A stretch of 41,188 bases of DNA from a virus. How positions within the stretch are numbered: position 1 is the first letter of the stretch; every line of letters starts with the position of its first letter. Positions 2,107 through 20,296 of the stretch are shown here, one piece after another. The notes below the pieces were generated by a model that saw only the letters and a list, made by a program, of their open reading frames with translations, was not told the origin of the DNA and made no database searches. Location of the stretch: IMG/VR virus record IMGVR_UViG_3300025828_000002, positions 1 through 41,188 of that record; one strand, given 5' to 3'. The position numbers were made by a program, and so were the translations under genes.

Positions 2107-2310
2107 CTACTCGATTTCTCCATAACGATGTTCTATAAGTAAAATTAGATTACTTACTATATCATCACTTGCTGAACATTTTCCTAATGTTGTCTCTACA
2201 ACATCGGTTATGTCATCTCTTAAAGAGTTATCGTCTTTTATATCTTCGTTAAAGAATTGTTTTGCTCTTTCTTGCATAATTCTTTGCTTTTCTTGTTCGG
2301 TCATACTCAT
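2107..2310 (-). CDS. Hypothetical acidic helical protein, 67 aa
   Basis: First gene of the leftward block. The start MSMTEQEKQR is preceded by AAAGGAG. An alternative start is the ATG six bases downstream. It is charged and helical with no recognised domain. As the first gene after the divergent control region it is a candidate early regulator or host-interaction protein, but that rests on position only. Confidence 0.8.
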   Translation of the reverse strand: MSMTEQEKQRIMQERAKQFFNEDIKDDNSLRDDITDVVETTLGKCSASDDIVSNLILLIEHRYGEIE

Positions 2311-2338
2311 GTATTCTCCTTTATATAGTGCTAATTAA

Positions 2339-2407
2339 TAGCTTGTAACACACAAGTGCAACATATGAACACTATGAAGTGTTAATAATCTTATGTGCTA
2401 CAAGCTA
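2339..2407 (-). promoter_or_regulatory. Leader with an 18-bp helix upstream of the leftward block
   Basis: The arms at 2339-2356 and 2390-2407 pair over 18 bp as minus-strand RNA, using two G-U wobbles that become mismatches on the plus strand. A smaller AACACT/AGTGTT hairpin lies inside (around 2367-2380). This places a strong structure in the 5' leader of the leftward transcript or close to its promoter. Confidence 0.6.
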
Positions 2408-2409
2408 CC

Positions 2410-2830
2410 AACTAAGGTAGCTAATAAAGGTTTTAGCTAAGAATGCGTACAGCTAATAAGGGTATATGGCCTGTAAATCTGCAGTCTGATTGGGTAACTA
2501 TCGTCTAACCTGTGGATGATACTTCGGGCTTAATCTAGGTATCGTTTTAGATATTGTCGAAACTTTCTCAATGGTAGATTTTTTCGCTTATGAGGTCGTG
2601 TTATGCCTTCGGGCCAATCTCGGTCGTCTGAGCCGGATAAAACTCCTTATCGTTAAGAGTGTCTAGGTGTCTCCGGTGGGCTTAGTGGGTAGGTATCTCG
2701 GGCCAGTATGGTTCTTTCCGAGTATTTAGTTGCATCCTCTAAGCTGTACTTGTCTCGCTCATTTCCTTAGCTATTTTTGGTGAAAGTTAAGGGCCTCTCT
2801 ACTGTGTTTGTTATTAATAACCTTAGGGGG
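2410..2830 (+). ncRNA. Candidate structured noncoding RNA
   Basis: There is no convincing ORF, and the base composition is visibly richer in G and C than the flanks. Nested helices seen by eye are TAGCTAA/TTAGCTA (2418-2424, 2433-2439), GATAC/GTATC (2518-2522, 2539-2543), GCC-UUCG-GGC (2605-2614), CTCGG-TCGT-CTGAG (2619-2632), CCGGA/TCCGG (2633-2637, 2672-2676) enclosing ACTC..TTA-TCGT-TAAGAGT (2642-2660), and GCTTAG/CTAAGC (2680-2685, 2739-2744) enclosing CTCGG/CCGAG (2697-2701, 2718-2722). The UUCG loop and the G-U pair in the CTCGG/CTGAG stem favour the plus strand. Ends and strand are not certain. No match to a known RNA class is claimed. Confidence 0.5.
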
Positions 2831-3715
2831 ATTTTCTTTACTTGTCAACAACCATTGAATAGACAAAGAAAAAATATAAAATATGTAGGGTGAAATAGCC
2901 TATAAACATTGGGGTTTTTGCTACATAAAAACACATGAAAAAAAACTTTAAAAAATCTAAAAAAACTTTGCTGATTTGCACCACAAAACACTCTAAGACT
3001 TTTCGCCGGCACCATCCATTGAGAGAGAAGGAGAGAGAGAAAGAAGTTAGTAGTCAAGCACCCTAGGGGCATTTGTTTAAATTTCTAAGGTACTCTTTTT
3101 CAAGCTGTATGAACAACTAGGTAAAACAGATACAAAGGTGGATAGAACCACAAAGAAAGAGAGAATAGAATTGGTAAAAACTACCAATAAATAAAGGGGA
3201 GAGGTTAAATGTGTGCCCTCTTGTTATTTATAGTGTGACCGCTAAAGATATGCTGTTAACTAATCCAGGACCCACTATATATAGCCCTGTTCCTTTACTA
3301 GCAAGTTATTACTTATTTAAGATGTTAAGTAGTTCTTACCCTGTGCTACTCCCAACCCAAACCGAATAACTCCATATAGTAGCTATATAACATATGTAGA
3401 ATAATAGGCTTTTACCCTAGTTACCATGGTCAGACTAATCCACTTACTTGATGTCTTATCTATTAGATTGTTCTAAAAGTCTGCAATCTAATGTGTTTGT
3501 GTAATTCAACTATACCATAAAAATAATATAGTAAACTGATGTAGGGTATTTTTTTTGTAGGCCTCCTTACTTAATTAAATACCCCACATAAATTACGACT
3601 ATGCTATTATTACTAATAGATAGGTAACTTAGGGACCTCAAAGGTTTTTCATAAGTTCCTCCTTTCTATTGTGTATGTTAAGTTTAGGTCCTACTGGCAA
3701 CAGCAGGGCCTTTAC
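2831..3715. other. AT-rich noncoding divergent region with many stem-loops
   Basis: I find no credible gene here. It contains a purine tract (about 3021-3046) and perfect or near-perfect inverted repeats: ATTGGTA/TACCAAT (3170-3176, 3182-3188), ATATAG/CTATAT (3374-3379, 3383-3388), a 9-bp pair ATTAGATTG/CAATCTAAT (3462-3470, 3484-3492), a 12-bp pair (3539-3550, 3578-3589, one G-U as minus RNA) and AGGTCC/GGGCCT (3686-3691, 3706-3711). A replication origin or a second structured RNA are possibilities. Neither can be decided by eye. Confidence 0.5.
3508..3521 (-). promoter_or_regulatory. Promoter-like 14-mer, leftward copy
   Basis: Read leftward the sequence is TTTATGGTATAGTT, identical to the rightward 14-mer at 3716-3729. 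TGGTATAGT resembles an extended -10 box (TGnTATAAT). No good -35 is seen. Confidence 0.45.
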
Positions 3716-3729
3716 TTTATGGTATAGTT
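3716..3729 (+). promoter_or_regulatory. Promoter-like 14-mer, rightward copy
   Basis: TTTATGGTATAGTT contains the extended -10-like TGGTATAGT and is followed by a T-run. It is the divergent twin of 3508-3521. It lies a few bases upstream of the small zinc-finger ORF at 3735. Confidence 0.45.
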
Positions 3730-3734
3730 TTTTT

Positions 3735-3845
3735 ATGAGTACATTTTTTTTATCAACAGATTGTGATGTCTGTCTGCATCCTTACTGGGAGGACCAGTTA
3801 ACTAATGGTATTTGTGAAGGATGCCAGGAGTATGAAGAGGAATAA
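3735..3845 (+). CDS. Cys-rich zinc-ribbon-like microprotein, 36 aa
   Basis: The ORF encodes a short protein with two CxxC knuckles (CDVC and CEGC) separated by about 16 residues, and an acidic tail ending EEYEEE-like. This spacing suits a small zinc ribbon. It lacks a clear Shine-Dalgarno, since the upstream sequence is a T-run, but the promoter-like element ends 5 nt before the ATG, so a near-leaderless mRNA is possible. It is the only plausible coding sequence in the 2311-4111 interval. A DNA- or protein-binding role is inferred from the zinc-ribbon look alone. Confidence 0.5.
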   Translation: MSTFFLSTDCDVCLHPYWEDQLTNGICEGCQEYEEE

Positions 3846-3893
3846 AAATTTTTTTTACCTCCCATAAAAACATAGATGCGGTAAATTAAATAT

Positions 3894-4081
3894 ACCTGGA
3901 AAGACCAGGTGTTGCATATGAGGATATGCTTCAATTTTATGAAAAGAAAGAAAACTTTTCATCTTTAAGTAATAAAAGTATGTGGTGTACTGGTGTAAAG
4001 AGATGTAATAGTTTTGTGGATTTCATATTTTTCATAACAGTTTGGACAACTGTACGAACAGAACCTCGCTTCGGCGGGGTT
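3894..4081 (+). ncRNA. Hairpin-array leader ending in a UUCG terminator
   Basis: Successive perfect stems are ACCTGG/CCAGGT (3894-3899, 3905-3910), GCATAT/ATATGC with a GAGG loop (3914-3929), ATGAAAAG/CTTTTCAT (3939-3946, 3955-3962), ACAGTT/AACTGT (4037-4042, 4048-4053) and then the terminator stem at 4062-4081. The 4112 frame is open back through this region, but the translation is not protein-like. It may be a small RNA or a cis-acting attenuation/antitermination leader for the rightward block. Confidence 0.5.
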
Positions 4082-4085
4082 TTGT
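4062..4085 (+). terminator. Rho-independent-like terminator with UUCG tetraloop
   Basis: An 8-bp stem, AACCTCGC/GCGGGGTT, closes a C(UUCG)G loop. It includes one U-G pair valid only on the plus strand and is followed by TTTTGTG. It sits between the divergent control region and the first late-type gene. Confidence 0.7.
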
Positions 4086-4111
4086 GTTATGCTTATCAAA
4101 AAGGAGTTAAT

Positions 4112-4183
4112 ATGCCAAAAGGTATCGGATACCCTAAGGGGATGAAAAAACCTAAGAAAAAAGGTAAAAAGAAAAAGAAGTAG
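4112..4183 (+). CDS. Lysine-rich microprotein, 23 aa
   Basis: ATG behind AAAGGAG (4100-4106). The product begins MPKGIGYPKGMKKPKK and is almost entirely Lys, Gly and Pro, a likely nucleic-acid-binding or disordered peptide. The start was chosen because of the Shine-Dalgarno and because an upstream in-frame ATG (3926) would translate the terminator hairpin. It is followed one base later by the next gene. In my recollection, short MPKG-type basic proteins occur next to the RYWSC-type protein in other marine phages; this was not checked. Confidence 0.7.
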   Translation: MPKGIGYPKGMKKPKKKGKKKKK

Positions 4184-4184
4184 T

Positions 4185-4442
4185 ATGGCTGAGTATCAAG
4201 GTAAATCTGTAACATTAAATAAACCTTCCAGGATTGGAAAAGGTGAACCAGGACATGGTCGTAAAAAGTTTAAGGTGTATGTTAAGGATGGCGACAAAGT
4301 TAAGAAAGTAATGTTTGGCGACCCTAACATGGAGATAAGAAAAGATAATCCGGAAGCTAGAAAATCATTTCGTGCTAGACACAAATGTGATACAGCATCG
4401 GATAAGACAAGTGCAAGATATTGGTCTTGCAAAATGTGGTAG
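4185..4442 (+). CDS. Conserved small basic marine-phage protein, 85 aa
   Basis: The C-terminal part SFRARHKCD...KTSARYWSCKMW resembles a short conserved segment I have seen in marine phage proteins of unassigned function. The two Cys and the His could bind metal. The N-terminal half is a Lys/Gly-rich beta-type sequence (KKFKVYVKDGDKVKKVMFGDP). It starts 1 nt after the preceding stop. It forms a head-proximal cluster of tiny basic or zinc proteins leading into terminase, so a packaging or head role is possible. Confidence 0.85.
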   Translation: MAEYQGKSVTLNKPSRIGKGEPGHGRKKFKVYVKDGDKVKKVMFGDPNMEIRKDNPEARKSFRARHKCDTASDKTSARYWSCKMW

Positions 4443-4581: not shown

Positions 4582-4683
4582 TTGAAAGTAGCATGCCCTA
4601 AGTGTGGCCTATACTTAATATACGATATAGACAGGTCTAAAATGACTTGTTTAAACAAAGAGTGCGAGGGATACAATAAATGA
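4582..4683 (+). CDS. Zinc-ribbon microprotein, 33 aa
   Basis: A TTG start directly after the preceding stop gives CPKCG...CLNKEC, a four-Cys zinc ribbon. Its TGA overlaps the terminase ATG in ATGA (4680-4683), a usual arrangement for translational coupling. The codons TGT TTA AAC AAA for CLNK carry a copy of the TGTTTAAACA palindrome. The non-ATG start and lack of a clear Shine-Dalgarno lower confidence. Coupling from the upstream gene could compensate. Confidence 0.6.
   Translation: MKVACPKCGLYLIYDIDRSKMTCLNKECEGYNK
4648..4657. promoter_or_regulatory. TGTTTAAACA palindrome
   Basis: Exact copy with flanks T and A, so the palindrome extends to TTGTTTAAACAA. It is inside the 33-aa zinc-ribbon ORF, about 25 nt before the terminase start. 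Confidence 0.7.
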
Positions 4684-6596
4684 CAAATGTTAAATTATGC
4701 TTTGCACAATCTTGTCATAATGTATTAAAACCACCTAAAAGAAAATTTTGTTCTGCTACCTGTTCTAAGGCCTACCATAATAAAAAATTTTACGCCCAAC
4801 AACAAGGCGCAGTCTATGAACCCGAACATGATGGTAAACCTGTAGCACAACCTAATGTACAAAAACGAAGAGGTGTTGTGTATGATGCTCTTGTAGAAAA
4901 AGAGTTAGGACCATTAATACTTAAAGGTGATTTAAAAAAACAAGATGCCGCTGCACTCTTAGACTGTACAAAAGCTGCTTTATCCTATGCATACGCTGCA
5001 TGGATTGAAGATATGGAGACTAAAGAAAAAGCAGAGAACTGGACTTTACCTGCTAAGGCAGAGAAGTCATTAGCTGACTTTAAGTTATTTAGAGATAGGT
5101 ATTTTCAAACAGAGACTGGTGAACCCTACCAAACTCCGGAGTTTCACATTAGATGGATTAAATCTATTCTTGAAGCTATAGAACATGGAAATCAGCAGAT
5201 GATACTATCTCCTCCACGACATGGCAAGACTGACCTACTAATTCATTTTGCTGTATGGCTCATAATTAAGAACCCTAATGTTAGAATATTGTGGGTAGGT
5301 GGTAATGAAGAGATATCTAAGAATGCTGTCGCTTCAGTAATAGACCAGTTAGAAAACAATGAAAAACTTATCGAAGAACTCTGCCCACCTGGAAAAAGTT
5401 TTAAACCAACTAGCAGAGCAGGAAAAGCGTGGTCGCAAAGTGGGTTCACTGTTGGCACTCGTACTGTTACCGGTATTAAGTCTCCTACCATGGTTGGTAT
5501 CGGTCGGGGTGGAAAAATTCTTTCACGAGATTGTGATATTATCATAGGCGATGACTTAGAGGACCACTCTTCTACAATGCAACCTGCATCAAGAGAGAAC
5601 ACAAGAACCTGGTGGACAACAACTTTATCTTCTCGAAAAGAGGAACATACAGCTTTAATTGTTATTGGCTCCAGGCAACACTATGACGATTTATATTCTC
5701 ATCTACTAGACAATGAAAGTTGGAATACAATAGTAGAAGAGGCACACGATACAGGGTGTACTTTACCCGATTGGAATGATGAAGCTCACCAAGACTGTAT
5801 GTTGTGGGCAGACAAAAGAACTTACAAATGGTTAATGGGTAGAAAGTCTGCTGCAGAGACTACTGGTGGTAGAGCTATTTATGAGATGGTCTATTTGAAT
5901 GTTGCAATGCCTGATGGTATGGCATTATTTGACAGCGTTGAGATAGAAGCATGTCGTGACCAAAGTAGAGAAATAGGGCAGGTACCTGCAGGAGTTAGGT
6001 TAATTGCAGGACTTGACCCGGCATCAGTTGGATACCAGGCTGCATTCTTATGGGGATATGACCAGGCATCTAACAAATTGTATATGATTGATATGGAAAA
6101 CTCACTAGGTGGTGGTATTCCACAAGCATTAAAGATAATGAAAGAATGGTTTGTAAAATACAATCTAGCCCACTGGGTTATTGAAGAGAATGGTTTTCAG
6201 CGTGCAATTAGACAAGACCAATCTATTAGAGATTTCGCAGGTAAGCATGGTGTATTTTTAGAAGGTACGCAGACTTACTCTAACAAACATGACCCGATAT
6301 TTGGTGTTACAGCTATGAGGCCATTGTTTGAACAACAACTAATTTCTTTGCCATATCTTGGATTTGAAGCCCAAGAAAAGGTAAACTTATATAAAAGTCA
6401 GTTGGTGTATTTCAGTTCTGCTCAAAATAAAAGCAGAAGTGTTGGACAAAAGTCTGACTTAGTAATGGCTAGTTGGTTTCCAATGAAAACTATTCGTAGA
6501 CTTCAGAAGGAAAGACTTGCTACAATGGGACTTGAATATGAACCATCTTTTGGTGGATATGAAGGTAGTAACATAGATTTGGATAATTGGAGATAA
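4680..6596 (+). CDS. terL: Terminase large subunit with N-terminal zinc finger and HTH-like region
   Basis: This is the ATP-driven DNA packaging motor. The Walker A-type motif SPPRHGKT lies at residues 177-184, the Walker B-type IIIGDD at 287-292, and a nuclease-domain start GLDPAS (D446) follows. The 638 residues are longer than the usual TerL core. The extra N-terminus carries a Cys4 finger (C7, C12, C24, C28) and an HTH-like helix pair around residues 78-105. No separate small terminase gene is evident, so this extension may do DNA recognition (inference). The start is coupled to the upstream microprotein, and the stop overlaps the portal start (TAATG). Confidence 0.95.
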   Translation: MTNVKLCFAQSCHNVLKPPKRKFCSATCSKAYHNKKFYAQQQGAVYEPEHDGKPVAQPNVQKRRGVVYDALVEKELGPLILKGDLKKQDAAALLDCTKAALSYAYAAWIEDMETKEKAENWTLPAKAEKSLADFKLFRDRYFQTETGEPYQTPEFHIRWIKSILEAIEHGNQQMILSPPRHGKTDLLIHFAVWLIIKNPNVRILWVGGNEEISKNAVASVIDQLENNEKLIEELCPPGKSFKPTSRAGKAWSQSGFTVGTRTVTGIKSPTMVGIGRGGKILSRDCDIIIGDDLEDHSSTMQPASRENTRTWWTTTLSSRKEEHTALIVIGSRQHYDDLYSHLLDNESWNTIVEEAHDTGCTLPDWNDEAHQDCMLWADKRTYKWLMGRKSAAETTGGRAIYEMVYLNVAMPDGMALFDSVEIEACRDQSREIGQVPAGVRLIAGLDPASVGYQAAFLWGYDQASNKLYMIDMENSLGGGIPQALKIMKEWFVKYNLAHWVIEENGFQRAIRQDQSIRDFAGKHGVFLEGTQTYSNKHDPIFGVTAMRPLFEQQLISLPYLGFEAQEKVNLYKSQLVYFSSAQNKSRSVGQKSDLVMASWFPMKTIRRLQKERLATMGLEYEPSFGGYEGSNIDLDNWR

Positions 6597-8344: not shown

Positions 8345-8633
8345 AGAATTTGACCCAATGGAAGAGACTGATAATCTTTTTTACAATATCATTAATGAAG
8401 AAGACTGGGATATAGAATTAGACTTTGATGATACAGACCCTAATTTAGAAGAACTTATTATTGATTTAGAAGGTACTCCGGCATTTTTTGAATACTTAGT
8501 TCCTGGACCTATGGATGGTGTTCTTATTAAAATAATGATGAGAAGATTAAATGAAACACAACAAAACAATTTTATGGAATTCTTTCAAAACATTGGAAAC
8601 TTTTTAGAAGACGAGGATAAAAAATATGGTTAG
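8337..8633 (+). CDS. Acidic hypothetical protein, 98 aa
   Basis: I chose GTG at 8337 because an ideal AAGGAGG lies 8 nt upstream. The ATG at 8304 would overlap portal by 41 nt and has no such site. The protein is strongly acidic (EETDNLFYNIINEEDWDIEL) with a helical C-terminal half ending in FLEDEDKKYG. The position just after portal suggests a small head or assembly factor. Confidence 0.75.
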   Translation: MPKEFDPMEETDNLFYNIINEEDWDIELDFDDTDPNLEELIIDLEGTPAFFEYLVPGPMDGVLIKIMMRRLNETQQNNFMEFFQNIGNFLEDEDKKYG

Positions 8634-9081
8634 ATTAAGCGCATCAGAACAAGCTGCTAAAAAAAATACAGATTTAAAAGCTGACCCAGGATATGCAGAC
8701 TTATATATTCCTAGAAAAGAAGGAGACGCAACAGGTTCATCCGGTATGGTAAATGATTTAGCTACTGGTCTAACTGCTGAAACTTCGGGAGAAGTAGCAT
8801 CTGTACAGGGAGCTACACAAATGCAACCAAGTAGGCCTATGAAATTAGGAGAGCCAACTAAATTTCCAGGTGTATCTAATGTTAATGGATTACAAACTGG
8901 TACAGGTGGCGTACCTAAACCACAATTAGATTTTAATGGTTATATGGCCGGTCTCTTTGATAAATTTCAAGACCCAATAATTTTAGAATACTTCCAACAA
9001 AATGATGCAGCACCACAAGTTGTTGATACTAAACAAAATAACAGGTATGCCAACAAATTAAAGGAAAGCGATGCGGTCTAA
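8626..9081 (+). CDS. Hypothetical protein, 151 aa
   Basis: The start overlaps the previous gene by 8 nt, with AGGA upstream. The sequence is low in hydrophobics and probably largely disordered, with Gly/Thr/Pro stretches (GLQTGTGGVPKPQLDF). A more ordered motif near the end reads MAGLFDKFQDPIILEYFQQ. No family recognised. It probably belongs to the virion or head assembly given its neighbours. Confidence 0.8.
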   Translation: MVRLSASEQAAKKNTDLKADPGYADLYIPRKEGDATGSSGMVNDLATGLTAETSGEVASVQGATQMQPSRPMKLGEPTKFPGVSNVNGLQTGTGGVPKPQLDFNGYMAGLFDKFQDPIILEYFQQNDAAPQVVDTKQNNRYANKLKESDAV

Positions 9082-12000
9082 TGGTATATCATTCTCTGCA
9101 ATGGACCTCGCTATTGCACATGCAGAAGATACGCTCAATAGGGTAAACTCTTACAAGCAGGGAACGCAAGAAACCAACTTAGAATTACAACAACGAATAG
9201 CTAACATGGGTAACGCCTACCCTACCCTACCGCCACAGATGGTAGTATATTCAGCATTAACAGGCTTAAATCCGGAAGATGACATGGCTTTGCAATTAGC
9301 TCAAAGAAATCAAGAGATACTTGCAAAGAAGTATGCACAGAAAATTGTTACTAAAGTAAATCCTTTTAAACGAGGTGTACAGTTAGGTATGCTTGCATTA
9401 GATGCTGCATTCCAACCTGTATCAAGAGGTTTCAAATCTGCAGTAGTTGCTGCACAAGAAACTGGACAATCAGTTCCACTTACAGTAGCAGGTGCTACAT
9501 TAGGTGGTTTAGCTGAAACTTTTGTAAATCAATCTCCAGGACAAGAAGGTAGAACAACAGCTAATTTTCTAAGCAAAGTATTTAATCCTAGTGTTGGTGA
9601 AGCATTTATAAATGCAAGAGAAAAGTATGGACCAACAGAACTTAATTTAGCTTTGCAACAAATAAAGAAAAAGAAACCTCTTAACCTAGGTACTGGTTAT
9701 TTACCATCTTCAATAGATTTAAGACAGACACAAACTTATCTTGATGAAATAAGAAAAGGTTCTGACGAAAGAACTGCAATGACAAGAGCTGCAGATATTT
9801 ATGGTGCGCCAATTACAGAAGTGTTTGATAAAAGAGAAGACCAATTTAAATATCAAACAAAAACTGGAAAAGAGATAGACATATCTCCTGGACGAGTTGT
9901 TGCTGCACAAATGTTAGAGCCAGGTTCTACAGGATACAGTGTTGTCTCCGGTATTATTGATGGTGTCTTTAGAGTTGCAGCAGACCCAGTAAACCTAGGC
10001 CTTGCTTATGGTGCAGGTGTTAAAAATGCAATGAGAACAATGGTAAGTGCTAATACTAAATCATTAAAAGCTACTGATGATGTCACAAAATTTTCTAAAC
10101 AATTATTTAAAACATTTTTGCCGGGAAAAACAGGTAAACAAAATAGAGCTATTTTTTATGGTAGAACACTAGATGATGTTAGAGCTACAGGATGGGGACA
10201 AAACTTTGGAGAAGCAATAGCAAAACTTAATGGCGATGAAGGTATGTCTTTCTTAAATGATATTCCGGAATTTAGAAATATTCCTATGTCAGTAAAGAAA
10301 GTACTTTTAGAAGTAGATGACCCTATACATGTATGGGATGTACTTGATGTTGTTGCTAAAGGTGGTAATTTAACTAATACACAATTAGACAATATGTTTA
10401 CAATGATTAAATCTTATGTACCTAAGAAAACACAAATAGAACTTGATAGAGCTATACAACAAAGCAAGAATAATAAAAACTTTGGTCTAGGAGCATTGCC
10501 TGCTAAGCCTACAGTTACTGGTGAATTCTTTAACTTTGTTGGTAAATTAATTACTGGTCAAAGTACAGATGTTGCACCTATGAGAAAATTTGCAGGGATG
10601 TTTCAATCATCACAACCTGCTAAAGGATTGCTTGGTGTTGGCGCACAAATGCGTATGTCATTACCAAAACACATGCAAAGAGCTATGTCACTAAGACCAC
10701 AAACTACAGCAATCATTAGTCAACTAGATGAAACAGCCTGGAACATAGATACAAACTTAAAGAATGCATTTGTTGATAGTAAGACTAGAGGTAAATATGC
10801 GCAGGAAACATTAGCTGCAAAATCACAATCAGAGCTAGATGATATTGTAAACAGAGTTAATCAGACGATTGCTAAATCAGTTGGTGAGCAAAACCCTAAC
10901 TTGTTAGTGGATGTTGAAAGTCTAATTAAACAACAAGAAAACTTTGGCGCAGAAATGGAAGAACTAAGAAGTTATTTTAAAGGCACTACTGGTGGTTCAT
11001 TATCTTTTAATGGTGTAATGGTAAAAAAGAAATACAAAAGAATTATTAACGACTTAGAAGGACATTTTAAAAGTTTAGGTATTAAGTATGATATTGACCA
11101 AGTAGAAGAGTTTGTATTTGAAGCAGTACCTAGTATGCACATGCTGTCACAAGCAGGTTCAACATTCGCAACAATTATAGACCCACAAGATGTAGTGCGA
11201 GCAACTAAAGCTCATCAAACATTAATTGGACCTACTGATACTTATTTAAGAGCATGGCTAGATAAGCCTAAAAATTTAGCAGAAGATTTTAACTGGACTG
11301 ACTTTCTAAAAGTTCCTAGAAAAGCATTGTTAGATAATGTATCCGCGAACAAACTTACTTTGAAACCAAAAGGTCCTAAAGAAACTCTGTTAGATTATGT
11401 ACAAAACAACATATTGAAACCTTTTTGGATGATACGACTTGCTCTCATGTTGAGAATAGCTCCCGAAGAAGCTATGCGTGCTGCATTCGGTGGCAAAGTA
11501 AACTTTATTACACATCCATTTCAAAGAATGGCCTTAAACTCAAATAAACAATTTGGTTTATTTGGAGATGAAGTTAGAGCAAATGAAGTAGCACAGTTGT
11601 ACAACAACTTAGGTGAAATAGTTATGACTACAAGAATGGGTCCGGATGATATTGAGTTCTTAAAGAATATGATTGATGTAGATGACATAAAACAATTTCA
11701 AGCTATAGATTACAATAGGTCCCAAAAGTTAATAAAAACAAATCTACTAGAAACAAATCCACAAGGTGTTGTATCAGATTACATTGTTGATGCTGCAGTT
11801 AATAACTTTGATTTAAGAGATTTAAGATTTGCAGAGTTAACTGAAAAAGCATTTAAAACAAAAACTAAAAAAATAAAAGCTAATGCTAAAGGAAATATAG
11901 AGGGATTTGATGGAGTAACTTATAACTCTATGGGTGAAGCATTTATAAAATCCGGTGGGTTTACAACTGACCTAGATGAAAGAAAATTTATTGACTTACA

Positions 12001-15000
12001 AACAAGAAAACTTGCAGAAGGAGATGCATTCGTATCACCTTATAAAGATAAAGAGTTTAGCTTAGGTCAACTTGGAGACATAGAAACAAAAGCAAAAGAA
12101 CTTAATATAAGCCCTGCAGAATATATAGACCAACAAATAGACAATGTGTTTTTAGATGATGACACTATTGGCCTGTTGTCTAAACAAAGTCATGTTATAG
12201 GAACTTATCAAGATGATGCAGGAAACTTTATGATTGATGTATCTGTTGCATTACAAGGTGAAAATGCTATTGCTAATGCTGTGTACATTGGAGCTAACTC
12301 ATTTCAAGAAAGTGTATACATCGCTAATAGAGAGCTTGCCGAAAAAACAGGATTTGGTAAACCATTAATGGATGATAATTTAATTTATCTATACAGCAAA
12401 GTTAAAGGAGATGGTTATAAAACTGCAGGAGATATAAATATAGATACAGTTCTTAATAAGCCAACTATGGAAGCAATGTTTAAATCTAACTTTGATGCAT
12501 TAGGACTAACAGTAGAAGAAGTTCAAGGTGCTGCTAAGGGTATGCCTGGAGGAAGTTTATTTAGTACAGATGAAAGTTACATGGCATCTATGGGTGAAGC
12601 TGCTATTACTAGAGGATTACTTGATGGAAGAAAAGATTTAGGAGAGAACTTAATGATTAGTGTTGATAAGTATTTACCTACTGGAAACATTAACCCTAGA
12701 TACTGGGAAGCATTGTGGGAAGAATTGTACTTACTTGCATCAGACCCAATAGTTGTACCACTTGTTAATAAAGGTATAGATGACACAATGATATATCTCA
12801 GAGGTGAAGGAAAAGAAACCTTAGAAGAATTAGTTGCTAGAAGTTTTAATCCGGAAGATAAATTATATTTACAAAGTGACAAAGCATTAAGAGAATATTT
12901 AGAAAGCCTCCAATACAGAGTTGCACAAACTGTAGGAAATCCTACTGCTAAAATAATAGACCCAAGAACAGGTAACGAATTATCAGCAGAACTTGCTACA
13001 AGAGTTTGGTATCAGAATGGACAAAAACAATATCCTAAGTATATTGCTGATATGTCTGTAGGTTCTAATACAAAGATATTTCAGTTTATTAAAAATGGTG
13101 GTGTTATGGATAATAAAGATTGGTTACGATACAAGACACATATCCAAACATTTAAATTAAAAGAACGAGGAACAAACAATCAAGAATTTTTCAAACAATT
13201 TATCAAGCTGTTTAAACAGGAAGTAGATGCACAAGATTTAGGGCCTAAAGTATTGCCAAGAAGATTTGACCTACAAAATAGAATATCTGAAAGTGGAACA
13301 ATGATTGTTGGTGAAGAGATACAAGCAGCAGGATACTTAGCTGATGTTAGATATGGTAATGATGCTTTCAACAGTTTATTGGAAACTGGATACAATGCAT
13401 TGATATCTAAACCATCTAACTACTTAAACAGAGACCCATTATTTAGATATGCATTCTATGAAAATGCTATAGAGGTTATACAGTATATGGACGATGCAAC
13501 TAAAGCAAAGTTTTTAAAAGGTGCAGAACCTTGGATTGATGGTAACAAACTATGGGATGAATTAATTGAAGCTGCTAAACAACCATCATTAGAGAATACT
13601 GTTACTAGCTTGCCACAAGCAGAAGAGTTATTAAAGACTGCAGCTATGAATGAAGTTAAAACATTATTCTATTCTGTATCACAACGACATGTTGCTTCAG
13701 ACTTATTTTCTAAATACATTCCTTTCCCGGAGATATGGGCAGAGGTATTCCAATCATGGGGTAAATTAATTACAGAAAACCCACAAAAATTTAATAGAGC
13801 AAGAATAACAGTAGACAATGGTACTGAAGCTAAACCTTGGGACAGTGAGAATGGTTTCTTAGAGAAAGACCCATCAACAGGAAAACTTATGTTTAACTAT
13901 GTTGATGTATTTAACATACTCACATTAGGTTCATTCAAAGCATTGGGTAGTGTTATTCGTGCATCGGGAGTTAAAGAAAACTTACCGGATGCTATTACTT
14001 CTCCATATCAAACAGCAGTATTTGGAGAAAGTCTAGAAGATGAAGGTGTACGAGCTACAGCTCCTGGTTACGCATCGGGACTTAACTTGATTGCACAGAA
14101 TGGTTTTGCTCCTGGATTTGGACCAGTAGTAACATTCCCAATGAGAATATTCTTAAATGCTATAGGTGCGCCACAATCTGCTCGTAAGTTTTTCTTAGGA
14201 GAGTATGAAAGTTCCGGCCAGTTATCAGACCAAGGACCTGCATGGTTAAAAAAGTTTTTAACCTGGGAAAATTCACCAGATACAGATTTACAAAATGCAT
14301 TTGCTACAACAACAATGGACTTATACAGTTCTTATGTACTTGCAGGATTAGTTGACCAAAGTGACCCAATAGAAGTTAACAAATTTATAGATAGAGCATT
14401 AAAACAAGCAGGAAATATTTATATTATACGAGGTGCGGCACAGTTCTCATTACCTACTGCAGTCCAACCAAGAATAGAAGTAGAAGATAAAAATGGAACA
14501 TGGTGGGGAACACAAGTATTAGTAAATAAATATCAAGAAATGTTAATTAAAAATGGTTATGACAACTTTGCTGCACAAGAAGAGTTTATAGAAAAGTTTG
14601 GTATTAACCCTATACCATTGAAACAGCCTAGCTCTTACAAAACTGGTAAACAACCTGTGAAAGAAAATGCATTCTTTTGGTGGCAACAAGATGATAGAAA
14701 AAGATTATTAGAAGCTGATGCGTTACCTAACACTGCTTATTATATTCATCCGGATAAAGTAGAAGACGAATTGTTTTGGCCTGCATATTATCAAACAAGA
14801 AGCCAAGGACTGCAACCGGAGGAGTTTGGTAACTTTATGAGACACAGTCAAGCTATTTTTGAGTATGAAAAAGGTAAAAGAGATATAAAAGAAAATGTTC
14901 CGGATAGTTTACAAAGAGAAAAAATATCAGACCTTAAAGCAGAAATAGAAGAAGATTATGGATTTGATTTATTTAACTTTCAAGGTAAACCTAAATCTGC

Positions 15001-15358
15001 ATCAACAAGAGAGTTATATGCAGAACTTGCTAGATGGGGTGACTATGAAGAGACAAGACAAAGCCCGGAGTATCCAATATTAACTGAGTACTTAGATTAC
15101 AGAAATCAAATTATTGATGTATTATTAGATGGAGGAAGTTTTACTTATAAGGGTGAGACTATGTATGTCTTTAGCCCAACTAAGAAGTCAAGAACATTAA
15201 ATGGTGTAGGCGAAGCACCAGTAAGAGCTAGAGAGATTATGACAATAATTTGGCAAGATTTGGTAACTAAAGGTAAAGATACTAACTTCCCACAGCTAGC
15301 TAATGAGGTGCTATTCTATGAGATAAGCCCTAATAATAGTGCAAATACAGGAGATTAA
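9071..15358 (+). CDS. Giant virion-associated protein, 2095 aa
   Basis: This is the largest gene in the window at 15% of the genome. The sequence is mostly helical with Gln/Asn/Lys-rich stretches. A segment reading NILKPFWMIRLALMLRIAP followed by EEAMRAAFGG (around residue 780) looks amphipathic or membrane-active. I see no polymerase, protease or lysozyme motif; in particular no HDS or TxxGR pattern supports a virion RNA polymerase. Giant internal ejection proteins of podoviruses have comparable size and a role inside the capsid, so that is the best inference. It contains one TGTTTAAACA site. Confidence 0.85.
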   Translation: MRSNGISFSAMDLAIAHAEDTLNRVNSYKQGTQETNLELQQRIANMGNAYPTLPPQMVVYSALTGLNPEDDMALQLAQRNQEILAKKYAQKIVTKVNPFKRGVQLGMLALDAAFQPVSRGFKSAVVAAQETGQSVPLTVAGATLGGLAETFVNQSPGQEGRTTANFLSKVFNPSVGEAFINAREKYGPTELNLALQQIKKKKPLNLGTGYLPSSIDLRQTQTYLDEIRKGSDERTAMTRAADIYGAPITEVFDKREDQFKYQTKTGKEIDISPGRVVAAQMLEPGSTGYSVVSGIIDGVFRVAADPVNLGLAYGAGVKNAMRTMVSANTKSLKATDDVTKFSKQLFKTFLPGKTGKQNRAIFYGRTLDDVRATGWGQNFGEAIAKLNGDEGMSFLNDIPEFRNIPMSVKKVLLEVDDPIHVWDVLDVVAKGGNLTNTQLDNMFTMIKSYVPKKTQIELDRAIQQSKNNKNFGLGALPAKPTVTGEFFNFVGKLITGQSTDVAPMRKFAGMFQSSQPAKGLLGVGAQMRMSLPKHMQRAMSLRPQTTAIISQLDETAWNIDTNLKNAFVDSKTRGKYAQETLAAKSQSELDDIVNRVNQTIAKSVGEQNPNLLVDVESLIKQQENFGAEMEELRSYFKGTTGGSLSFNGVMVKKKYKRIINDLEGHFKSLGIKYDIDQVEEFVFEAVPSMHMLSQAGSTFATIIDPQDVVRATKAHQTLIGPTDTYLRAWLDKPKNLAEDFNWTDFLKVPRKALLDNVSANKLTLKPKGPKETLLDYVQNNILKPFWMIRLALMLRIAPEEAMRAAFGGKVNFITHPFQRMALNSNKQFGLFGDEVRANEVAQLYNNLGEIVMTTRMGPDDIEFLKNMIDVDDIKQFQAIDYNRSQKLIKTNLLETNPQGVVSDYIVDAAVNNFDLRDLRFAELTEKAFKTKTKKIKANAKGNIEGFDGVTYNSMGEAFIKSGGFTTDLDERKFIDLQTRKLAEGDAFVSPYKDKEFSLGQLGDIETKAKELNISPAEYIDQQIDNVFLDDDTIGLLSKQSHVIGTYQDDAGNFMIDVSVALQGENAIANAVYIGANSFQESVYIANRELAEKTGFGKPLMDDNLIYLYSKVKGDGYKTAGDINIDTVLNKPTMEAMFKSNFDALGLTVEEVQGAAKGMPGGSLFSTDESYMASMGEAAITRGLLDGRKDLGENLMISVDKYLPTGNINPRYWEALWEELYLLASDPIVVPLVNKGIDDTMIYLRGEGKETLEELVARSFNPEDKLYLQSDKALREYLESLQYRVAQTVGNPTAKIIDPRTGNELSAELATRVWYQNGQKQYPKYIADMSVGSNTKIFQFIKNGGVMDNKDWLRYKTHIQTFKLKERGTNNQEFFKQFIKLFKQEVDAQDLGPKVLPRRFDLQNRISESGTMIVGEEIQAAGYLADVRYGNDAFNSLLETGYNALISKPSNYLNRDPLFRYAFYENAIEVIQYMDDATKAKFLKGAEPWIDGNKLWDELIEAAKQPSLENTVTSLPQAEELLKTAAMNEVKTLFYSVSQRHVASDLFSKYIPFPEIWAEVFQSWGKLITENPQKFNRARITVDNGTEAKPWDSENGFLEKDPSTGKLMFNYVDVFNILTLGSFKALGSVIRASGVKENLPDAITSPYQTAVFGESLEDEGVRATAPGYASGLNLIAQNGFAPGFGPVVTFPMRIFLNAIGAPQSARKFFLGEYESSGQLSDQGPAWLKKFLTWENSPDTDLQNAFATTTMDLYSSYVLAGLVDQSDPIEVNKFIDRALKQAGNIYIIRGAAQFSLPTAVQPRIEVEDKNGTWWGTQVLVNKYQEMLIKNGYDNFAAQEEFIEKFGINPIPLKQPSSYKTGKQPVKENAFFWWQQDDRKRLLEADALPNTAYYIHPDKVEDELFWPAYYQTRSQGLQPEEFGNFMRHSQAIFEYEKGKRDIKENVPDSLQREKISDLKAEIEEDYGFDLFNFQGKPKSASTRELYAELARWGDYEETRQSPEYPILTEYLDYRNQIIDVLLDGGSFTYKGETMYVFSPTKKSRTLNGVGEAPVRAREIMTIIWQDLVTKGKDTNFPQLANEVLFYEISPNNSANTGD
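13209..13218. promoter_or_regulatory. TGTTTAAACA palindrome
   Basis: Exact intragenic copy (CTGTTTAAACAG, a 12-bp palindrome), inside the giant gene where it encodes part of KLFKQ. No surrounding hairpin is obvious. Confidence 0.65.
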
Positions 15359-15361
15359 TAA

Positions 15362-16783
15362 ATGGAAGATGATTTAATAGACGAGTTGTTACCTGAAGAA
15401 GAAGGTACAACAGAAGAACCACAGAAAAAATATGCATCTATAGCTGAACTAATAAGCCAGTCATTTGCACAACCACTGTATTTCTTTACTGTTGAAACTC
15501 CTGGACCTACAAAAAAAGCTAGAGGAACAATAGAAAAGTTATGGTCTATAACAGAAGTTATGGAGAACACAGACTTTTCTGCGTTTATATCTGATGACAC
15601 AAGAGCTAAGTATGCAGACATTGTTGCTAATCCTAATGTAGATGCACAAGCTAAAGTAGTAGAACTTATAACAGATGTATATGATGACATATCAACTGGT
15701 AAAAAACAATATGTAGTAGAAGCTGAAGGAACATTTACCCAACCAGGAAAAAATACAATAATTACTTTTAATGAAAATAAAACAACTGGTGCGACATTAT
15801 CATATAAAGATTTTGCAGAAGGTGTAGAAAGCACAAGCACTGAAGAAATAGTTTTAGCAGAAGAAGTTGAAGAAGCGTCAAAAACTGCACAAGATATACA
15901 AGCAGCACAAGGTGCTATTAGAACAAGTCATCCAACTTGGGGTTATAAAACTACAAAAGATGGTTTGATACAAAACTCTACAGGTGAATTTGTACCTGCT
16001 CCTTTTTGGAAAGGTAATGAGTACAGTATGTTCAGTGACATGGACCCATCAGAGATATTTTCATTACAACAAAAGATGGTTCGTGCAGGAATGAAAGCTC
16101 CTACTGTAGAACAGTATGGACAATGGAGTGATACAGAAGCCAACTTTATGTCTGCAGTATTTATTAAAGCTGCTGATGATACAGACTTTAGTTGGGAAAA
16201 AGATATGGCAGCAGGACTACCTGCTTACACAACTGCATTACAAGAACTGATGGATGAGGTAGGCCAAACCGAAGACTTTATAAAACTACTTAATGAAGCT
16301 AACTATTTACAATCAGAACCTAATGTTTCACCTGCTCAAATACAACAATTATTAGACCAGGCTGCAGCAGGATTAGGTATAACATTGACAGCACAAAACT
16401 TAGTTGACTATGGAAACTTAGCAGTGCAGGCCTATGGTCAAGCAGCAGCATTAGAAAAAGATTTTCAAGGTTCTTTAATTACAGATAGAGATGTAATACT
16501 AGGAACTACATACAAAGACATAAGAGCTGTAGAAGAAGGTGAGTTCCCAAGATATCTAAAAGGTTCTGCAGTACCTTTAGTCTTACCATCATACGAATAC
16601 TTGATGGGCCAAAAAGGACCACAACCGGAAGTTAAATCTGCATTAGAAATTGTTACAGAAGCCTTAGAAGCAAGGCCGGAGATACAACAGCAACAAGCTG
16701 CTAATGAAGACTTACAAGATATTAAATACTCAACTAATTTATTTGAAGCATCTATGGGTGCTATAGAACTAGGAGATGGATAA
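15362..16783 (+). CDS. Hypothetical virion protein, 473 aa
   Basis: ATG behind GGAGATT, 3 nt after the giant gene. The sequence is acidic and helix-rich with no recognised motif. The N-terminus is charged (MEDDLIDELLPEEEG) and an Ala/Gln-rich helical stretch lies at about 330-370. It sits in the 8-22.7 kb block between portal and scaffold and is therefore presumed to be an internal or ejection protein. Its stop overlaps the next start (TAATG). Confidence 0.8.
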   Translation: MEDDLIDELLPEEEGTTEEPQKKYASIAELISQSFAQPLYFFTVETPGPTKKARGTIEKLWSITEVMENTDFSAFISDDTRAKYADIVANPNVDAQAKVVELITDVYDDISTGKKQYVVEAEGTFTQPGKNTIITFNENKTTGATLSYKDFAEGVESTSTEEIVLAEEVEEASKTAQDIQAAQGAIRTSHPTWGYKTTKDGLIQNSTGEFVPAPFWKGNEYSMFSDMDPSEIFSLQQKMVRAGMKAPTVEQYGQWSDTEANFMSAVFIKAADDTDFSWEKDMAAGLPAYTTALQELMDEVGQTEDFIKLLNEANYLQSEPNVSPAQIQQLLDQAAAGLGITLTAQNLVDYGNLAVQAYGQAAALEKDFQGSLITDRDVILGTTYKDIRAVEEGEFPRYLKGSAVPLVLPSYEYLMGQKGPQPEVKSALEIVTEALEARPEIQQQQAANEDLQDIKYSTNLFEASMGAIELGDG

Positions 16784-17883
16784 TGGAAGAAGATAATAAC
16801 AATCAAGATATATTCGGAGAACTAGATTGGTATAGAGGTAAGACTATAGAAGAAATGCGTAGTGACTTAATTTTATTAGCACAAGGTAAGTATTTTGATA
16901 ATGACCAAGACTATGCAGCTTTTACTGATAATCCATATAACAAAGGACCTAAATTAGATGGTAATAAAAATGTATCTATTATTAGTGGTTTTGATTTAAA
17001 CGACCAAGCACCCGAAGGACCTGGACCTGAAGAGTATGCAACTATGGATGATGAACAAATAGTATCTTCATACATAACTAGCATTAAAAAGTTTCCACCA
17101 ATAGTTGAAATTAAAGACCAGGAAGCATTTGCTGAAGCAGTTTTACCTGCATTAGATAACATGAACAATGTTGCAGAATATTTTACAACAGGTGAAGGAA
17201 CCAAAGATAGCCCAATGGGAAGCAAAATTAATTATGGCAATGGGATGCTTATAGCTACAGAGATGCAGACAGGTGCAATATTAGACTATGTTGATGAAGG
17301 TTTTAAAAATACAGGAGAGTTTTATGCTTGGTATTTGAATGACCTTGCAAATCTACAAGTAGTATTGCAACCAGGCCAAACACAAGCAGAAGACTTTAGT
17401 GTTGTAGATGAAGGTTTTTATGATGATAAAGTAGATGCTCCTAACAGTAAGTTCTCACAAAGGCCACAAACACAGGCTGATGACAGCGTGTTTAAACAAG
17501 GTGATAAAAGCCTTGTAGATAAAGGCAATGAGTTTTTTGCTAATCAACCAGTAGGACCAGTAACACAAAGGATTAGAGATGGTTTACCTGGATTTGAAAA
17601 AGCATTCTACAACAGTACAGTCGCACCTGCTAAAAGATATTATCAATTGTTAAAGATGATTACACAAGTTGGTAAGAGTACTGTACAAAATATAGGTGGA
17701 GGTTTAGCTGAAACTGGTAAGTTAATTGCTGATACTCCAGGAGCAGTTGCAGATAAAGTAAAAGAAGGTGTTGAGAACATACAGGAAACTGCAGAGAAAA
17801 CACCATCCTTACTAGAAGTAATGCAAATGCTTAGAGATAAACCTAGCATAAAAGAAAGTTTGCCGGAAAATAAAAATGAGTAA
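16783..17883 (+). CDS. Hypothetical virion protein, 366 aa
   Basis: Translationally coupled to the previous gene (TAATG). The N-terminal two thirds are acidic. The C-terminal third contains a long amphipathic helical segment (NIGGGLAETGKLIADTPG, then DKVKEGVENIQETAEK) of the kind seen in membrane-active ejection proteins. It carries one TGTTTAAACA site. No family recognised. Confidence 0.8.
   Translation: MEEDNNNQDIFGELDWYRGKTIEEMRSDLILLAQGKYFDNDQDYAAFTDNPYNKGPKLDGNKNVSIISGFDLNDQAPEGPGPEEYATMDDEQIVSSYITSIKKFPPIVEIKDQEAFAEAVLPALDNMNNVAEYFTTGEGTKDSPMGSKINYGNGMLIATEMQTGAILDYVDEGFKNTGEFYAWYLNDLANLQVVLQPGQTQAEDFSVVDEGFYDDKVDAPNSKFSQRPQTQADDSVFKQGDKSLVDKGNEFFANQPVGPVTQRIRDGLPGFEKAFYNSTVAPAKRYYQLLKMITQVGKSTVQNIGGGLAETGKLIADTPGAVADKVKEGVENIQETAEKTPSLLEVMQMLRDKPSIKESLPENKNE
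17489..17498. promoter_or_regulatory. TGTTTAAACA palindrome
   Basis: Exact intragenic copy inside the 366-aa gene (encoding VFKQG). Its 5' flank is G instead of the usual pyrimidine. Confidence 0.65.
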
Positions 17884-17962
17884 GACAAAATTAGAGTTGC
17901 TTAAAGAAGAAGCATCTAAAGCAATACAGGAACAAAGAGCTAAGAGACAGAAAGCAAACTAA
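17876..17962 (+). CDS. Lys/Gln-rich microprotein, 28 aa
   Basis: The ATG overlaps the end of the preceding gene by 8 nt in another frame. The product, starting MSKTKLELLKEEASKAIQEQ, is a single amphipathic, strongly basic helix. It ends 3 nt before the next ATG. The tight fit between two genes supports translation, though the Shine-Dalgarno is weak. Confidence 0.6.
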   Translation: MSKTKLELLKEEASKAIQEQRAKRQKAN

Positions 17963-17965
17963 TCT

Positions 17966-20296
17966 ATGGCGGAATATGGCAATAGAGAAATTGGAATTAT
18001 CCAGGATGCTTTAAAAGAAATTTATGACGAACTAATTAATGGTGGTGCAAGTGAATTTCGTCAACAAATACTAAATACTTTACTTCAAGGTAGACCCGAC
18101 AATTATTACACAACACATATCAATACTCTTGAAGAAGCCTTTGAACCTTTAGAAAATACTTTTGGACAATTAAATTTAAGCACAATGATGAATTATGCAT
18201 TTGCAAACTTAGAAGTCTTAGTTGAAATGGAGGCTTTAGATGATTTGACAGAACCTGCACAAATGTGGACAGGATACGATGAAACATCGGAAGCAGTATT
18301 AGATATAGCAAATGAACTTAATGAAAATTTTGATTTTGAAATAGATACAAACCAAGATATATACGATGTAACAAGAGAGATGACTGAACAACTACAAGGT
18401 AGCAATATAAAAGTACAAGACATTCCTCTTGCTTTAGATATGCAAATAAGAACTCTTGACGAAATGAAATATTTTGAGATTGGTTCTATGTACTCTGCAT
18501 GGTCTTCAACAGAAGTAATGAGACCTTTTACTGTGCAGCTTGTAGAAGTTTATAACCAAATAGAAAACTTACCGGAAGAACTTATAAACGAATTGTATGT
18601 TGATATAGCAGATAGTTTAAGTCTGAAAGAAGGCCCTAGTGATTATTTAAGAGCGTATGATAATCCTAATAACAGTCAAGCTAAAGCTGTAAAGAATGTC
18701 ATTAAGTACTATCTAGAACAATTAGGAAGACAACAAACAGGATATGTTAATTTTAGTTCTGTTGACAATACATTTTACGATGGTGGAATAATGATGGATT
18801 TCTATGAAGCAACAGACCAAGTAGCTACTGATGTAGGAATTGCTATAAAATCTAATATAAATCTTTTTTTACAAAATGCTGTAGAACCTACTCAACTTTT
18901 AAATAGTGTAAAGTCTTTTCAAGGAGTAACTGCAGATGACTTTCCATATCAAATTGATAAAGGTTATATGCAAGCCTACAACGAGATTATAGGTACACAG
19001 ATAATAAACAATAGAGGTATTAAAGATGTCAACGCTACAGTAGATTATGTTGATAGGTATGATTTATCAATAGAAGACTTTGCAGAAGAACTTGATATAA
19101 AAATAAAAAGCACACCTACAAATGTTGTAGATGAAATAAAATCAACTATGATTGGCTACGAAAATCAAGTAAAAGCATTTAAAAATTTAGACAAAAATGT
19201 AATTGGTGAATTACCAGTAGAAAAAAATTCTCAATTATTTAGTCAAAATATTCGAGAAAGACCCGATAGTATTTCTTATGATGAATTTATCAAAAACTAT
19301 CCTGTTGAAGAACTTGGTCCAATACCTTTTTATGAAGGAACAGGTAACACATTAACTCCTGATGATTGGTTAAGAGAACAAAATGGCACAGGTTATCAGT
19401 TAAAAGAAGGAGTAACTCCTGAAGAATTTAGAAAAAGTTTAGATAATTTTATAGAACAAATAGATAATCCACATATAAAAGAAGGTTTGTTATCAAGATA
19501 CAGAAAATACGATAAATTATCTGAAGGCATAATAGACCAAACAGTTAAGTCCAGAATACTAGGTGCTGTTAATCAAGATGTTTTTTATGATGTAATAGCA
19601 TTTAATGATGATTTATATACGACAAAAAAAACAGAGGACATGGCTATTGTTTTTGATGGTTGGACAGAACCTACTCCTTTTGAAGATATGGCTTTAGCAG
19701 AAATGGAAGATTGGGATTGGGTATTAGATGAACAAGGAAATAAAGTTGAACCTATTGACCCAAGAAAAAACATACAAGGCATGGATGAGTATGACAAAAC
19801 ATTAAACCAATACTACAAATATTACACTGAAGAAATTACAGACACACCTACAAATGTAGTAGATTTAGATGAAGTAATATCTCAGTCAGATGGTGTAGAT
19901 AATCTAAACAAATCTAAAGAGATTATGCAAAAGAACCCTGGCTTTTTTAGAAAAGTATTCAATGTACTAGAGAAGTTAGACATAGGTGACCAGGTAATAA
20001 CTAAAGCAATAGCTAAAGGTCTACCTGCATTAGGCCTAGCTTCAGCGGCACCAGGAGCAGCAATAGCTTATGGAGCTTATGAGATTTCAATATTACTTAC
20101 AGATGCAGCACAAGCATACAATAAGATGCAGACAACTGACGAAGGTTTTTGGGATAACTTTGGTGAGCTGTCTGATAAGTATTCAATAGCTTACAAAATA
20201 AGTAAACCTGTGTATGATATAATACTAGATAGCTTAAATGACGATTTGACTACAGAAGGACAGGATGAAGAAATATTATTTTCTTTCAATAGGTAA
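17966..20296 (+). CDS. Hypothetical virion protein, 776 aa
   Basis: A large acidic, helical protein with no recognised domain. A short motif TPTNVVD occurs twice, encoded by near-identical DNA (CACACCTACAAATGT at 19111-19125 and 19843-19857). Toward the C-terminus a hydrophobic Ala/Gly segment (LPALGLASAAPGAAIAYGAY) could insert into a membrane. Together with its neighbours this suggests a role in genome ejection. The stop overlaps the next start (TAATG). Confidence 0.8.
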   Translation: MAEYGNREIGIIQDALKEIYDELINGGASEFRQQILNTLLQGRPDNYYTTHINTLEEAFEPLENTFGQLNLSTMMNYAFANLEVLVEMEALDDLTEPAQMWTGYDETSEAVLDIANELNENFDFEIDTNQDIYDVTREMTEQLQGSNIKVQDIPLALDMQIRTLDEMKYFEIGSMYSAWSSTEVMRPFTVQLVEVYNQIENLPEELINELYVDIADSLSLKEGPSDYLRAYDNPNNSQAKAVKNVIKYYLEQLGRQQTGYVNFSSVDNTFYDGGIMMDFYEATDQVATDVGIAIKSNINLFLQNAVEPTQLLNSVKSFQGVTADDFPYQIDKGYMQAYNEIIGTQIINNRGIKDVNATVDYVDRYDLSIEDFAEELDIKIKSTPTNVVDEIKSTMIGYENQVKAFKNLDKNVIGELPVEKNSQLFSQNIRERPDSISYDEFIKNYPVEELGPIPFYEGTGNTLTPDDWLREQNGTGYQLKEGVTPEEFRKSLDNFIEQIDNPHIKEGLLSRYRKYDKLSEGIIDQTVKSRILGAVNQDVFYDVIAFNDDLYTTKKTEDMAIVFDGWTEPTPFEDMALAEMEDWDWVLDEQGNKVEPIDPRKNIQGMDEYDKTLNQYYKYYTEEITDTPTNVVDLDEVISQSDGVDNLNKSKEIMQKNPGFFRKVFNVLEKLDIGDQVITKAIAKGLPALGLASAAPGAAIAYGAYEISILLTDAAQAYNKMQTTDEGFWDNFGELSDKYSIAYKISKPVYDIILDSLNDDLTTEGQDEEILFSFNR

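Follow-up and report, generated by a model that had tools for sequence, protein, structure and literature searches.

Comparative evidence for a structured noncoding RNA upstream of the terminase operon in a clade of marine phages

The locus and its surroundings

The stretch of DNA analysed here (the window) is an IMG/VR virus record of 41,188 bases from a marine phage clade with genomes of about 40 kb. It encodes a terminase (4680-6596), an SU10-type major capsid protein (23376-24386), an exonuclease and a single-strand annealing protein. No GenBank phage record matched the window at the DNA level, and the closest GenBank phage terminases are less than 60% identical to that of the window. A host assignment by way of the terminase in GTDB genomes matched three unlike MAGs and was unusable.

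Between leftward small genes on one side and the rightward terminase operon on the other lies a noncoding stretch running from 2311 to about 3735. A preliminary description, made from the sequence of the window, had placed a candidate large structured RNA within it at 2410-2830, and no ORF of at least 40 amino acids was found in 2411-2837 on either strand. The proposed limits proved close, but those supported by comparison of the 22 homologues that cover the full core are about 2443-2798 on the plus strand (approximately 360 nt), and these are comparative limits rather than mapped transcript ends. The segment was also rightly said to be richer in G+C than its surroundings, the values being 0.39-0.475 within the RNA segment and about 0.31-0.37 in the flanks. 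The first ORF downstream of the RNA is about 900 nt away, and the intervening DNA is noncoding and conserved. A promoter scan of the region gave nothing above chance.

Several other elements lie near the RNA. Just downstream of it, at 2843-2861, is the dyad TGTCAACAACCATTGAATA (TGTCAA-N6-TTGAATA), which is probably an operator-like DNA element and not part of an RNA; homologues of group E (see below) have TGNCAACTTATGTTGNCA in its place, and in the homologue L028 a second copy of the dyad is found upstream of a leftward gene. The noncoding segment 3335-3520, which is conserved even in a sister clade of phages, could be a late promoter, an origin or a packaging site. A clear intrinsic terminator (CCTCGC-TTCG-GCGGGG and a T run, 4058-4085) precedes a small lysine-rich ORF at 4112, and the gaps between the leftward small genes hold strong hairpins (533-562, 1721-1749 and 2073-2101) that are terminator-like on the minus strand.

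Secondary structure derived from homologues

Homologues were collected from IMG/VR by scans with the terminase, a SprT-like protein and DNA patterns, which gave 22 distinct sequences spanning the whole core and several more that were partial. They fall into five groups: A (the window, L016, L084, L086, L088, L127 and L010), B (L025 and L028), C (L021, L094, L019 and L095), D (L097, L099 and L100) and E (L034, L036, L040, L041, L101 and L105). Wherever the flanks were covered, the homologue occupied the same position upstream of the terminase. Further candidates from the DNA patterns (L122, L125, L126, L128, L129, L131, L132, L135, L143-L168 and L170-L172) were mostly chance coding matches and were discarded.

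Eleven core helices common to the 22 sequences were derived by hand from the alignment of the homologues, and a segment alignment was written by hand and checked letter by letter against the source sequences. Standard pairs occupy 999 of the 1048 core-helix cells (95%), and a single position may show as many as four pair types. The architecture shown by this comparison consists of a variable 5' hairpin subdomain, a junction closed by P4 that carries P5, P6, P7/P8 and P9/P10, and then an H-type pseudoknot formed by P11 and P12 (all coordinates of the RNA are on the plus strand).

The 5' part begins with one strand of P1 (GCG, 2445-2447), whose putative pairing with CGC (2585-2587) is invariant and thus has no support from covariation. 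It is followed by the P2 hairpin (UACAG..CUGUA, 2448-2475), which reads GAUAG/CUAUC or GGG/CCC in relatives and in the long forms is substituted by a GGC/GCC, GCC/GGC or ACC/GGU hairpin. Next comes an exchangeable subdomain (2476-2580), closed by P3 (AAUCU, 2476-2480, with AGAUU, 2576-2580) and containing the P3b hairpin (GAUAC/GUAUC, 2518-2543; GAAAG/CUUUC and GCUAG/CUAGC in relatives). The hairpins P2, P3, P3a and P3b of this domain covary, by a less rigorous test than that used for the core. A UUUUUU tract after P3 was considered as a universal intrinsic terminator and dropped, because only some members of group A have a strong P3. A possible pairing between the U6 tract and a conserved A6 tract near 2868 is invariant, so that it permits no covariation test.

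P4 is a long-range helix (2589-2594 with 2758-2763) joining bases about 165 nt apart, and takes the forms AUGAG/CUCAU, AUCGG/CCGAU, AGUGUU/AACACU and AGUGGU/ACCACU. The junction holds the P5 hairpin (GCC-UUCG-GGC, 2605-2614; GUG/CAC, GUC/GAC, GCU/AGC, AAG/CUU, AGG/CCU and AGA/UCU in relatives), the P6 hairpin (CUCG/UGAG in CUCGG-UCGU-CUGAG, 2619-2632; CUUC/GAAG, GCC/GGC, CCC/GGG and ACC/GGU in relatives) and P7 (CCGGA/UCCGG, 2633-2676), which is paired in 117 of 117 cells, with CG, GC, UA and AU at single positions, and encloses the P8 hairpin (ACUC/GAGU, with UUA-UCGU-UAAGAGU, 2642-2660). The remaining stem is made of P9a (GGCUUAG/CUAAGCU) and P9b (GGGU/AUCC), together spanning 2679-2745, and bears P10 (CUCGG/CCGAG with an inner GCC/GGU, 2697-2722), which is missing as a unit in some relatives and swapped as a unit in others. 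The preliminary description had counted seven helices, without coordinates for all of them; the three whose loops it described could be matched one to one, its C(UUCG)G-like loop being that of P5 and its two UCGU loops those of P6 and P8.

P11 (CCUUAG/UUAAGG, 2765-2792) is replaced in relatives by CCUGGG/CCCAGG, CCCAGG/CCUGGG, CCCGAG/CUCGGG or CUUAGG/UCUAAG. The pseudoknot helix P12 pairs 2783-2786 with 2795-2798 and covaries both within group E (GAUG/CAUC, GUUG/CAAC, GAAG/CUUC) and between groups E and B (AGAG/CUCU in B); in the window it has three of four pairs and one A-C mismatch, and it is imperfect also in groups C and D. A possible P13 (CUCUCUA/UAGGGGG, 2795-2830), with a T-rich run after it, overlaps P12 and was dropped as a core helix, being lost in 6 of the 22 sequences. 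Conserved tracts are also found outside the helices: UUUUUUCGCU (2579-2588, single-stranded), UAUUUAGUUG and GUACUUG are unpaired and located at junctions, and UAUUUAGUUGC (2723-2733) forms an internal-loop strand.

Covariation, fold energy and strand

Covariation on the homologue alignment, a check suggested in the preliminary description, was assessed over all column pairs by an R-scape-like test, which used a tree from FastTree, a null in which the Fitch substitutions of each branch were reassigned to random columns, and an APC-corrected G-test. In the curated alignment, which was shaped by hand around the structure and gives the strongest statistics, 11 of 36,315 column pairs were significant at E < 0.05, every one of them within a proposed helix (P4, P5, P7, P8, P9b or P11); a test confined to the structure gave 24 significant pairs of 55, and P10a by itself was not significant. 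Unguided MAFFT alignments gave at most one significant pair, located in P4, with 4 of the 10 top-ranked pairs, out of about 30,000, in proposed helices and only 6 of about 40 structure columns staying significant. When plain MAFFT was applied to group B (L028) with group E, 93.8% of cells were paired and 17 pairs were doubly changed (7.8 when shuffled, at most 3 when slid), and for groups C and D together the values were 95.0% and 19 (8.8 when shuffled); the observed covariation score was matched by 0 of 500 shuffles in both of these alignments. The signal was weaker in a mixed alignment of groups A, B and E (80% paired) because of misalignment, and a MAFFT alignment of the P9-P12 module from all groups was set aside because it put P9 of group E in the wrong place. 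RNAalifold, run unaided, recovered P4, P6, P7, P8, P10 and P11 from groups C and D, and P5, P6, P7, P8 and P12 from groups B and E, for which it proposed other partners for the P4 strands.

A covariance model trained on L028 and group E, with groups A, C and D held out, located the window copy precisely, at 2582-2801, with 75.6 bits (E = 5.5e-19, a rough E-value) and also detected all of groups C and D. The same model stripped of its pairs scored the window at 42.6 bits, 33 fewer, and L021 at 19.8 instead of 50.3, and it lost L094 and L095. Significant covariation beyond phylogeny, the mark of structured noncoding RNAs in general, and the held-out model thus bear out the original proposal of a large structured RNA, and it is almost certain on these comparative grounds that the window encodes a real RNA with a conserved structure.

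A fold energy no better than that of shuffled sequence had been named in advance as an outcome that would speak against the RNA, and this is what was obtained: the minimum free energy of the RNA segment is -111.8 and the shuffled mean is -111.8 (z = 0.0), and the mean z over the 22 homologues is about -0.8. We regard fold energy as uninformative here, for or against, since the test performs poorly on G/U-rich RNAs with several junctions and pseudoknots, and covariation outweighs it; it is because of covariation, not energy, that the RNA stands above chance. The z values would suit a G/U-rich intergenic DNA that folds by chance with no functional RNA, but this explanation is refuted in practice by covariation under a phylogeny-aware null and by the held-out model. 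Had the single-sequence energy test been used alone, a real RNA would have been thrown out.

The helix cells contain 63 G-U and 23 A-C combinations, 13 of the latter in P12, and because G-U cells outnumber A-C cells the plus strand is favoured, as the preliminary description had argued from wobble pairs. The minus strand has a fold-energy z of -1.75, but the counts nonetheless favour plus.

Distribution, known RNAs and probable role

Among IMG/VR records the RNA family was found in one clade only. The terminase of the sister clade is 70-76% identical to that of the window, and the ORFs downstream are shared, as is some of the noncoding DNA there, but inspection by eye and the covariance model found no copy of the RNA anywhere in the sister-clade records, two of which are 40.5 and 37.8 kb long. 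All RNA-bearing contigs with enough flank hold relatives of 8626-9081 and of the 2095-residue protein encoded at 9071-15358, and no sister-clade contig holds either; in the portal and capsid proteins the sister clade is closer to the window than group E is. The co-occurrence of the RNA with the 2095-residue protein, which had no match in Pfam, PHROG or PDB, may be the result of one evolutionary event and is taken only as a lead. The protein lies in a block (8626-21468) whose first genes track the presence of the RNA among covered contigs.

Within the RNA-bearing clade, long and short forms of the 5' subdomain occur inside groups A, B and E, even among otherwise near-identical relatives. In L088 and L086 the whole P9/P10 unit departs from that of the window while the flanks are near identical, and P10 is present in L025 and not in L028. 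In such swaps of stem-loop cassettes between close relatives, both strands of a helix change together. The upstream neighbour gene also varies among carriers of the RNA.

The RNA was said at the outset to fit no known tRNA, tmRNA or riboswitch, and this was upheld: ARAGORN found no tRNA or tmRNA gene in the whole 41 kb, and Rfam 15 gave no match at the gathering score in the window, none to E = 10 in 2300-4200 and none to E = 1 for three divergent homologues. A match to a known family, the other outcome named as speaking against the candidate, therefore did not occur. Sub-threshold Rfam matches (istR, E 0.004, 4004-4085, and others) lay outside the RNA or were due to chance. A search of published open-access papers found no description of this RNA. 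GOLLD and ROOL are among the few known large structured phage RNAs of obscure function, and both form RNA cages. GOLLD is a large, elaborate noncoding RNA borne by phages and prophages; it contains a pseudoknot, its 5' part is less conserved, and its members are often longer than 800 nt and located near tRNA islands (PMC12286853); the solved example of ROOL has 659 nt, and this class too is often near tRNA islands (PMC12286853). The RNA described here resembles GOLLD in being large, elaborate, phage-borne, pseudoknotted and less conserved in its 5' part, and ROOL in being phage-borne and ornate, with many helices and pseudoknots and no known protein partner. It is unlike both in its size of about 360 nt, roughly half theirs or smaller, in having no tRNA genes nearby or elsewhere in the window, and in matching neither the GOLLD covariance model nor the ROOL Rfam model. 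OLE RNA, of about 600 nt, is likewise a large structured noncoding RNA, one that forms a ribonucleoprotein (PMC12054373), but it is cellular, occurs mostly in extremophiles of the Bacillota and has no similarity to the phage RNA. The latter should be classed as a family of its own, similar in kind to GOLLD and ROOL but belonging to neither.

We infer, with a probability of roughly 0.6, that it is a standalone phage noncoding RNA acting in trans. In this reading the divergent intergenic region would give rise to a separate plus-strand transcript spanning about 2443 to 2800. Such an RNA would most likely scaffold a protein of the phage or the host, or else assemble with itself; contacts would be made through the conserved single-stranded tracts, and the swappable stems would form the periphery. 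Action in trans is suggested by the approximately 900 nt to the next gene, by the changing upstream neighbour and the cassette swapping, and by the fact that the downstream operon does without the RNA in sister phages.

The main rival, possible though distinctly less probable, is that the RNA is a cis-acting leader or attenuator forming the 5' part of the late (terminase) transcript, in which competition between P12 and the terminator-like P13 would allow binding of a ligand or protein to set read-through. The P12 strand 2795-2798 lies inside the P13 5' strand (2795-2801), so that the two helices are mutually exclusive, P13 is retained in 16 of the 22 homologues, the RNA is oriented toward the terminase operon and the operator-like dyad is just downstream. 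However, the six homologues without P13 retain P11/P12, conserved noncoding DNA separates the RNA from the first ORF, no known riboswitch family matches, and the same operon functions in sister phages that lack the RNA.

It is doubtful, if conceivable, that the RNA represents a new class of trans-acting phage RNA working with the co-inherited block of the 2095-residue protein (8626-17883), for instance by being packed in the virion or by guiding assembly of that protein, with stems exchanged as cassettes among co-infecting phages. A role in DNA packaging or replication, as for phi29 pRNA or an origin transcript, would suit the place of the RNA between early leftward genes and the adjoining terminase genes, but appears improbable. 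The phi29 pRNA, of about 170 nt and also encoded near packaging genes, has another fold; unlike in that case, the terminase of the sister clade, 70-76% identical, works without the RNA, and no Rfam family is similar. Slightly less probable still is a counter-defence or decoy RNA with peripheral stems diversifying by recombination under host pressure. Swapping of stem cassettes between otherwise near-identical relatives would fit this, but may only reflect tolerance at the periphery, and there is no tie to any defence system; the idea also overlaps with the trans-acting reading.

For this RNA family, the size of about 360 nt, the comparative structure and the natural stem-exchange variants make structure and function work (transcription, probing, imaging) practical, and the RNA-free sister clade is a natural control.

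A separate genome-wide feature was also observed. The palindrome TGTTTAAACA has 16 copies in the window, where 0.14 are expected, in and between genes (e.g. at 544, 1383, 1733, 22679, 36284 and 41100). Each of five related phage genomes, some carrying the RNA and some not, has 17-22 copies, and two distant relatives have none; the palindrome has the look of a site for protein binding or modification throughout the genome.
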